From the NCBI GenBank assembly GCA_018065105.1, contig JAGHTX010000220.1, forward strand, positions 1-34,696: DNA of 34,696 bases. The letters are read 5' to 3'. The position numbers were made by a program, and so were the translations under genes. This document shows positions 1 through 30,849 of the stretch, piece by piece; within the stretch, counting starts at the first letter, position 1; the number at the start of each line of letters is the position of its first letter. The stretch comes from Bacillota bacterium. GTDB taxonomy: Bacteria > Bacillota_I > Bacilli_A > Erysipelotrichales > Erysipelotrichaceae. The notes under the pieces are model-generated. The model made no database searches, was not told where the DNA came from, and worked only from the letters and a program-made list of their open reading frames with translations.

Positions 1-93
1 GGCTTTAGGCATATCGCAAACTTGCGTATGTAAATCGTCAAAAATCATTATACGATATTCTTTAAATAAATTTTTATAAAAATTTTGATTCAT
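1..93 (-). CDS. Unidentified protein, N-terminal 31 residues only
   Basis: A minus-strand reading frame starts with ATG at 93-91 and runs off the left edge of the window (MNQNFYKNLFKEYRIMIF...). A good Shine-Dalgarno, GGAAAGGAAG on the minus strand (110-101), sits about seven bases before the ATG. I do not recognise the family from 31 residues. The gene lies directly downstream of the folded RNA at 111-337, whose terminal U-tract ends right before this ribosome binding site. That is the same arrangement as the TPP riboswitch and thiM later in this window. The gene may therefore be controlled by that leader. Function unknown; it is too short for the ORF track. Confidence 0.6.
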   Translation of the reverse strand, partial: MNQNFYKNLFKEYRIMIFDDLHTQVCDMPKA

Positions 94-110
94 ACAAACA
101 CTTCCTTTCC

Positions 111-337
111 AAGAAAAAAAGGAAACGGCGATTTGAAGACGGGTATTTTGATTGCGTTTTGTATATTCTTCGTGAAAATAGATCTGTAAAAGGATGTCTT
201 CTTATAAAACAATCAAAAATGCCATTTCCCTAACGCATATCGGCTATTGTGAAGCCTGTAGGCCAATTAGAAGTATAAAAAATAGTCTCATTTAAAAGTA
301 AGCTTCTTACTCTAATGGGTCATGCCGATATGCCTTA
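111..337 (-). ncRNA. Candidate structured RNA / orphan riboswitch-like leader
   Basis: Read on the minus strand, this stretch folds extensively. A perfect 10-bp helix joins 333-324 with 244-235 (GGCATATCGGC-type). Inside it, 316-311 pairs with 271-266 and encloses the hairpin 310-306/302-298. A second domain is closed by 229-221 with 129-121 and contains 218-210 pairing with 154-146 (9 bp) and 201-196 pairing with 140-135. Those last two helices cross, so they would form a pseudoknot. The closing helix is complete on the minus strand through a U-G wobble, but would hold a C-A mismatch on the plus strand, which fixes the orientation. A run of seven T follows immediately. I do not recognise the consensus of TPP, SAM, lysine, cobalamin, FMN, purine, glycine, T-box, 6S or SRP RNA. 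It could be a stand-alone RNA or a cis leader. Confidence 0.5.
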
Positions 338-10427: not shown

Positions 10428-10677
10428 TTGTATAAAAGTGAGGAAAGGAAATAGTACATTCGCCTCAAAATTGTAGAGACTTCTTGGCTGGTGAAAAAGA
10501 AGATTTTAACGAATGGAACACGTCCTGGAGCTGTATATGCGAACACAGTAGTGTATACCGGTTGTCACCGTTAAAAGACTAGAGTTGATAGACTCGATGA
10601 GATCATTATTGTGAGATAATGGTGAAATAAGGTGGAACCACGTATATTACGTCCTTTGTATAGGACGTTTTTTTATT
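10428..10677 (+). promoter_or_regulatory. T-box leader, histidine-specific, upstream of hisZ
   Basis: Contains the T-box core AAGGTGGAACCACG (10629-10642), an AGAGA-type element, the GGTG (GNUG) motif and a CCTGGAGC distal segment in stem I. In the specifier loop GAA-CAC-A sits opposite an AGTA element, so the specifier is CAC (10544-10546), a histidine codon. A terminator (ACGTCCT / AGGACGT, 10649-10668, then seven T) ends the leader. Uncharged tRNA-His should stabilise the antiterminator and switch on the his genes. The bulge reads UGGA, which would pair best with a tRNA whose discriminator base is U. Confidence 0.95.
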
Positions 10678-22968: not shown

Positions 22969-23203
22969 AAAAAAAGAGTCACCCTTCTTCTATGAAAAGG
23001 ACGACTGTAACCGCGGTACCACCTTAATTCCATTCACTTGATATGAATGACACCTTATTCTTAACGCGAATACACGATGTTGTCTCCAATCCTATCGACA
23101 ACATAACTCCCAGACACGTTCCAAAGCTTTCTTTTTGAACTTTCACCAACCGTTCGCTCTCTAGAAAAGAATGTACTTTGTACTTCTTCTGTTCAACATT
23201 ATG
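22969..23203 (-). promoter_or_regulatory. T-box leader of the amino acid transporter operon
   Basis: On the minus strand the core is AAGGTGGTACCGCGG (23025-23011), and a terminator (23006-22977) with a seven-T run ends the leader. Stem I shows AGTACATTC (same as in the his leader), AGAGAG, GGTTGGTG and a GGGAG distal loop. Aligned with the his leader, the specifier loop reads GAT-TGG-A, giving TGG (Trp, 23086-23088) if helix ATTCTTTT/GATAGGAT forms. An alternative register GAT-AGG-A gives Arg. The bulge UGGU predicts a tRNA with discriminator A, whereas bacterial tRNA-Trp usually has G. T-box identity is firm; the amino acid is not. Confidence 0.93.
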
Positions 23204-23208
23204 AAAAT

Positions 23209-29863: not shown

Positions 29864-29878
29864 ATCATTAAATATCAT

Positions 29879-29957
29879 CGTTTGGGGAGCATTTGCTGAG
29901 AGTAGGTTCGACCTTGACCCAATAACCTGATCTAGGTAATTCTAGCGTAGGAAAACG
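29879..29957 (+). promoter_or_regulatory. TPP (THI-box) riboswitch aptamer
   Basis: Shows the hallmark order: GGGGAGC, GCTGAGAG, GACC..TTGACCC, AATAACCTGATCT, GGTAATTCTAGCG, then GGAAAA. P1 closes with CGTTT (29879-29883) and AAACG (29953-29957). It senses thiamine pyrophosphate and should shut off the thiM-thiE-HAD-thiD operon. Confidence 0.96.
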
Positions 29958-29975
29958 ACATACACATACATTTGT

Positions 29976-30027: not shown

Positions 30028-30849
30028 ATGTTAAAAGAATGTTTAGAAAATGTTAGAAAGAATACACCACTAGTTCACAATATTACAAACTATGTAACTG
30101 TTAATGATGTAGCCAATGTGATACTTGCCTGTGGAGCCAGTCCAATTATGGCCGATGATGAAATGGAAGTGGAAGATATCACTTCTATCTGTGGCGGATT
30201 GAATATCAATATTGGGACTTTAAATTCTCGTACGATCAAAAGTATGATCAAAGCCGGAAAGAAAGCCAATTTATTAAATCATCCTGTCTTATTGGATCCT
30301 GTTGGGGTAGGGGCCAGCCAATTGCGTTCACAAACCGCAAAAACTTTAGTGCAGGAAATTCAATTTTCAGTTATTCGAGGGAATATCTCCGAAATCAAAG
30401 GGTTGGCATTAGGAAGTTCTACTACCCAGGGAGTGGATGCCAATATGGCCGATACGGTAACGGACGAAAACTTAATGGAAACCATTCAAGTATTGAAACA
30501 ATATGCCAAAGAAATGCATTGTGTCATTGCGGTAACTGGCGCTATTGATTTAGTAACGGATGCGCAAAAGTGCTACGTAATTCGAAATGGAAGAAAAGAA
30601 ATGTCTTCGATTACTGGAACTGGATGTCAATTAAGTGGGATGATCACAGCTTTCCTAGTTGCCAACCCAGGAAACTTTACCGAAGCCGCTGCGGCAGCCG
30701 TATGTACAATGGGATTAGCCGGAGAAATTGGCTATTCGCACTTACAGGCATACGAAGGTAACTCTACGTATAGAAATCGTATCATTGATGCCATTTATAA
30801 TATGGATGGAAAAACACTAGAAGAAGGAGCTAAATATGAAATCTATTAA
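30028..30849 (+). CDS. thiM: Hydroxyethylthiazole kinase
   Basis: A 273-residue ribokinase-like enzyme that phosphorylates the thiazole moiety (THZ) for salvage into thiamine. PLVHNITNYVTVNDVANVILACGASPIMADD is the family signature at the N-terminus. LDPVGVGAS follows, and the catalytic Cys/anion-hole segment is SITGTGCQLSGM. Strong AGGAGG site, first gene under the TPP riboswitch. Its end overlaps thiE by 14 bases. Confidence 0.96.
   Translation: MLKECLENVRKNTPLVHNITNYVTVNDVANVILACGASPIMADDEMEVEDITSICGGLNINIGTLNSRTIKSMIKAGKKANLLNHPVLLDPVGVGASQLRSQTAKTLVQEIQFSVIRGNISEIKGLALGSSTTQGVDANMADTVTDENLMETIQVLKQYAKEMHCVIAVTGAIDLVTDAQKCYVIRNGRKEMSSITGTGCQLSGMITAFLVANPGNFTEAAAAAVCTMGLAGEIGYSHLQAYEGNSTYRNRIIDAIYNMDGKTLEEGAKYEIY

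Follow-up and report, generated by a model that had tools for sequence, protein, structure and literature searches.

What does an RNA do that is strongly folded, occurs once in its genome and lies directly upstream of the start of a gene that runs off the end of a contig? The window analysed here is one whole contig (G000:C121) of 34,696 bases, and its left edge is therefore the contig end. The RNA is about 230 bases long and runs from 337 to 111 on the minus strand as two adjoining closed domains followed by a U-tract, an assignment based on enumerated helices, shuffled sequences, a ranking across the window and the lack of an Rfam match. All evidence on it derives from one sequence in one genome. 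The RNA probably controls or partners the downstream gene, and it is tentatively proposed that it does so in cis, as a structured leader that governs how the gene beginning at 93 on the minus strand is translated.

Two closed domains and a crossing helix

Domain 1 (231-337, minus strand) is closed by helix P1, in which 333-324 pairs with 244-235 over 10 bp with zero mismatches and which is extended past a G.G mismatch by a further 3 bp (337-335/233-231). The pairing probability of P1 is 1.0, and the hairpins in the interior of the domain are ambiguous. Domain 2 (119-231, minus strand) is closed by P3 (231-221/129-119, 9-11 bp), whose pairing probability of about 0.69 comes from an ensemble in which pseudoknots cannot be represented. 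Nested within P3 is P4 (218-209/155-146), a helix of 10 bp with pairing probabilities of 0.66-0.97. A crossing helix of 6 bp spanning 135-201, formed by GAAGAC at 201-196 and GUCUUC at 140-135, joins the P4 loop to the linker between P4 and P3, and on the basis of this predicted pairing it is probable that domain 2 contains a pseudoknot.

The first-pass annotation had described an orphan, pseudoknot-like RNA on the minus strand, placed as a 5' leader and comprising two closed domains, a crossing pair of helices, a G-U pair that works on the minus strand alone and a U-tract ending just before a ribosome-binding site. This description is borne out by helix enumeration, since P1 and P3 are both present on the minus strand and the crossing helix lies inside domain 2. 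The G-U pair corresponds to U224.G126 in P3, which on the plus strand becomes an A.C mismatch, while the U-tract (123-111) abuts the ribosome-binding site GGAAAGGAAG (110-101).

An adjacent pair of closed long-range helices as strong as this one was found in 0 of 1,500 dinucleotide shuffles, and the crossing helix was equalled in 28 of 3,000. When such pairs on either strand of the window are ranked, the combination of P1 and P3 comes first, at -33.1 kcal/mol compared to -27.7 kcal/mol for the runner-up. These statistics were picked once the element had been seen. The plain minimum free energy z-score is moderate, at -2.26 for the minus strand and -0.94 for the plus strand. The two-domain structure formed by P1 and P3 is real in the sequence and the observation is confirmed.

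Known RNA classes and the search for homologues

The window was compared with the 4,227 families of Rfam, a match being a covariance-model score that reaches or approaches the gathering score. Three matches were obtained, two T-boxes and a TPP riboswitch (29873-29970) that is followed by thiM at 30028. The T-boxes are located at 10432-10659 (+) before a hisZ-like gene and at 22994-23205 (-) before the gene for an amino-acid ABC transporter binding protein; the names of these genes and of thiM were read from the sequences and not from a family-library run. On another contig of the same genome (G000:C79) a glycine riboswitch (L066, 14090-14180, minus strand) lies between genes for an endonuclease/exonuclease/phosphatase-like protein and a membrane protein.

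Over the RNA itself Rfam gave no minus-strand match at E <= 5 and two plus-strand matches, a group I intron (17.6 bits, E 0.056, gathering score 50) and Srn266 (19 bits against a gathering score of 63), both of which were rejected as far under threshold. The earlier impression that the core belongs to no familiar class thus holds, with no family near its gathering score. The alternative that had been raised alongside it, an RNA of the raiA type, is not supported because Rfam is silent on the minus strand even at this permissive cut-off. The raiA RNA is a pseudoknotted molecule of about 200 nt, and the RNA at 337-111 resembles it in size and pseudoknot but differs in lacking the Rfam match. The raiA RNA is reported to occur in more than 2,500 species (PMC11706538), whereas the present RNA was found in one genome. 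As far as their models reach, both raiA and the abiF motif (RF03085) are excluded.

Homologues were also sought by blastn and with a covariance model (R1) built from the single sequence of the RNA. The model was applied at several taxonomic levels, namely the family (245 genomes), the order (316), the phylum (392) and the class to which a Faecalicatena genome belongs (391); these sets overlap and amount to roughly 1,000 distinct genomes from the RNA's phylum and Clostridia. No homologue was detected among them, the best foreign score being 26.7 bits. The control was a model built from the single sequence of one T-box of the window and nearly equal to R1 in length and number of pairs. It scored the other, divergent T-box at 81.6 bits, and therefore an RNA equally distant from 337-111 should have stood out, although the genome search scored part of the first-look candidates per genome and the control covered the window alone. 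Nor was it detected in the four other genomes searched from the genus, and phage and plasmid collections gave no match at the DNA or protein level.

Several weak candidates were set aside as chance similarities, the best of the blastn and model candidates in relatives having been inspected. One (L072) overlaps protein-coding sequence, and another (L149) is intergenic but does not keep the crossing helix. Short blastn matches in relatives proved to have dissimilar flanks on extension. Riboswitch classes are normally common to related species. The failure to find the RNA in the four other genomes searched from the genus departs from this pattern and, together with the lack of a homologue in the larger set, weighs against a cis-acting leader.

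Competing pairing over the ribosome-binding site

The ribosome-binding site GGAAAGGAAG (101-110, minus strand), as read from the sequence, lies 7 nt 5' of an ATG at 93-91 that is co-oriented with the RNA. This ATG opens a frame of 31 codons (MNQNFYKNLFKEYRIMIFDDLHTQVCDMPKA; 1-93, minus strand), which represents the 5' end of a gene cut by the contig end. The codon usage of the frame is coding-like: its log-odds score of +1.7 falls between that of random sequence (-22 +/- 11) and that of typical coding sequence (+14 +/- 7) and is far from the former. The 31 residues have no family match in Pfam, PHROGs, NCBIfam or PADLOC, for which so short an N-terminus is a poor test, and scanning viral and genome collections for peptide patterns yielded unrelated proteins only. 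Ahead of the ATG, a further frame without stops (201-94) contains no ATG, GTG or TTG start and matches no family.

Folding predicts that the 3' strand of P3 has two mutually exclusive partners, the 5' strand of P3 and the ribosome-binding site. Pairing with the latter yields a terminator-like or sequestering hairpin (99-127, minus strand) of 12 bp and -8.8 kcal/mol, of which 0.3 are expected in shuffled sequences. The two folds are nearly isoenergetic, at -54.8 kcal/mol with P3 and -54.6 kcal/mol with the hairpin over the ribosome-binding site. It is this competition at near-equal energy that favours a cis-acting translational leader. The same reading is supported by the significance of the structure, by its position directly before a coding-like start that shares its orientation and has a strong ribosome-binding site, and by its single-copy nature, with no repeat elsewhere. 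On the other hand, the ribosome-binding site is mostly paired in both predicted states, so that the predicted switch is a partial one, and no consensus promoter was found ahead of the RNA.

In the mechanism proposed for such a leader, domain 2 would be stabilised by the binding of a protein or small ligand or by the timely folding of its pseudoknot. P3 would then stay closed and the hairpin over the ribosome-binding site would be weakened, permitting translation, whereas without stabilisation the hairpin would form and translation would be low. In such a scheme domain 2 may sense something, and a riboswitch is a possible reading of the RNA. The first-pass annotation had likened the arrangement to the TPP riboswitch and thiM in the same window. 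The likeness holds for the layout, but beyond the layout the comparison is not a fair one. Like translational riboswitches in general, TPP/thiM of this window included, the RNA is a structured element right before a ribosome-binding site that can be covered by an alternative pairing; it differs from them in having no known aptamer and no homologue found.

Pairing over the ribosome-binding site could in principle also be altered by a ribosome stalled on a leader peptide. Two candidate peptides are encoded within the RNA, MAFLIVL at 225 and MRLFFILLIGLQASQ at 291; both frames are located within the domains, and the former extends over the 5' strand of P3 as well as that of P4. Neither frame has a well-spaced ribosome-binding site, however, and a U-rich sequence is expected to contain short hydrophobic frames by chance, making ribosome-mediated attenuation very improbable.

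An accessory or rearranged locus and candidate partner systems

In the nearest genome (G004), whose bglA protein is 92% identical, the alignment with the window extends from 408 rightwards only. Synteny stops at a conserved hairpin (GGTTCCAATAATTT/AAATTATTGGAACC; 408-452), and positions 1-407 are therefore accessory or rearranged, the downstream gene being accessory in this species. To the left of the breakpoint G004 carries an acetyltransferase-like gene, which was sought but not found in the genome of the RNA. The next genes of G004 have their places elsewhere in the genome of the RNA and in another context, so the other side of the breakpoint was not recovered by this route.

The shared flank has features of its own. 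The stretch 408-600 is non-coding, lies upstream of bglA and is highly similar in G004; it holds a block conserved at about 500-590 and, on the minus strand, a hairpin with a T-run, and is possibly a regulatory region of bglA. Translated searches with the bglA protein gave 39 matches in the genome of the RNA (G000) and 53 in G004, compared to 3-4 in G001 and G002. Some of these matches represent fragments of a single gene. The set of family-1 glycosidases in G000 and G004 is apparently large for genome sizes of 2.4-2.8 Mb.

A locus beside a synteny breakpoint and without homologues may also harbour no functional RNA, its inverted repeats being the product of rearrangement or of a decayed element. 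The ends of domain 1 do form 14-bp imperfect terminal inverted repeats (TAASGCATATCGGC), like those of small transposable elements. The inverted repeat is absent elsewhere in the genome at <=1 mismatch, however, and the whole element is single-copy, on which grounds a MITE or other small transposable element was rejected. Debris is, moreover, unlikely to combine two independent domains with a crossing helix and a ribosome-binding site, and this explanation is considered improbable.

Accessory DNA with no homologue in the genus or in the roughly 1,000 genomes also speaks for a non-coding RNA that is bound by the product of the downstream gene and acts together with it, beyond any control of the gene, as in systems of the defence or mobile kind such as defence reverse transcriptases, retrons and RNA antitoxins. 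A pseudoknotted RNA directly upstream of, and co-oriented with, a gene recalls DRT2 (PMC12039810) and abiF (PMC12373285). In DRT2 a pseudoknotted non-coding RNA adjoins its reverse transcriptase (PMC12039810), and the likeness lies in a pseudoknotted RNA that neighbours a gene within accessory DNA. Beside the RNA at 337-111 a reverse transcriptase cannot be seen because the gene is cut, and no 120-nt template region was recognised in it at this level of scrutiny. The abiF RNA (RF03085) is found upstream of its gene, is riboswitch-like by description and comprises two short motifs and a terminator in 88-132 nt (PMC12373285). The two share a structured RNA directly 5' of a gene, but the present RNA does not match the abiF motif although this is represented in Rfam. 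The lack of a family match for the 31 residues, for what so short a query is worth, and the pairing with the ribosome-binding site, which suggests a role in cis, also speak against an RNA-protein pair, which is regarded as somewhat unlikely.

The cis-acting leader is accordingly retained as the tentative assignment. The more specific combination of a two-domain pseudoknotted RNA of an undescribed kind that either forms a functional pair with an undescribed accessory gene or senses a ligand on its behalf is considered unlikely on the whole. If real, the element would represent a leader or partner RNA that stands outside all curated families and is tied to an accessory gene, and RNAs of such a kind would be missed by screens that require many homologues.
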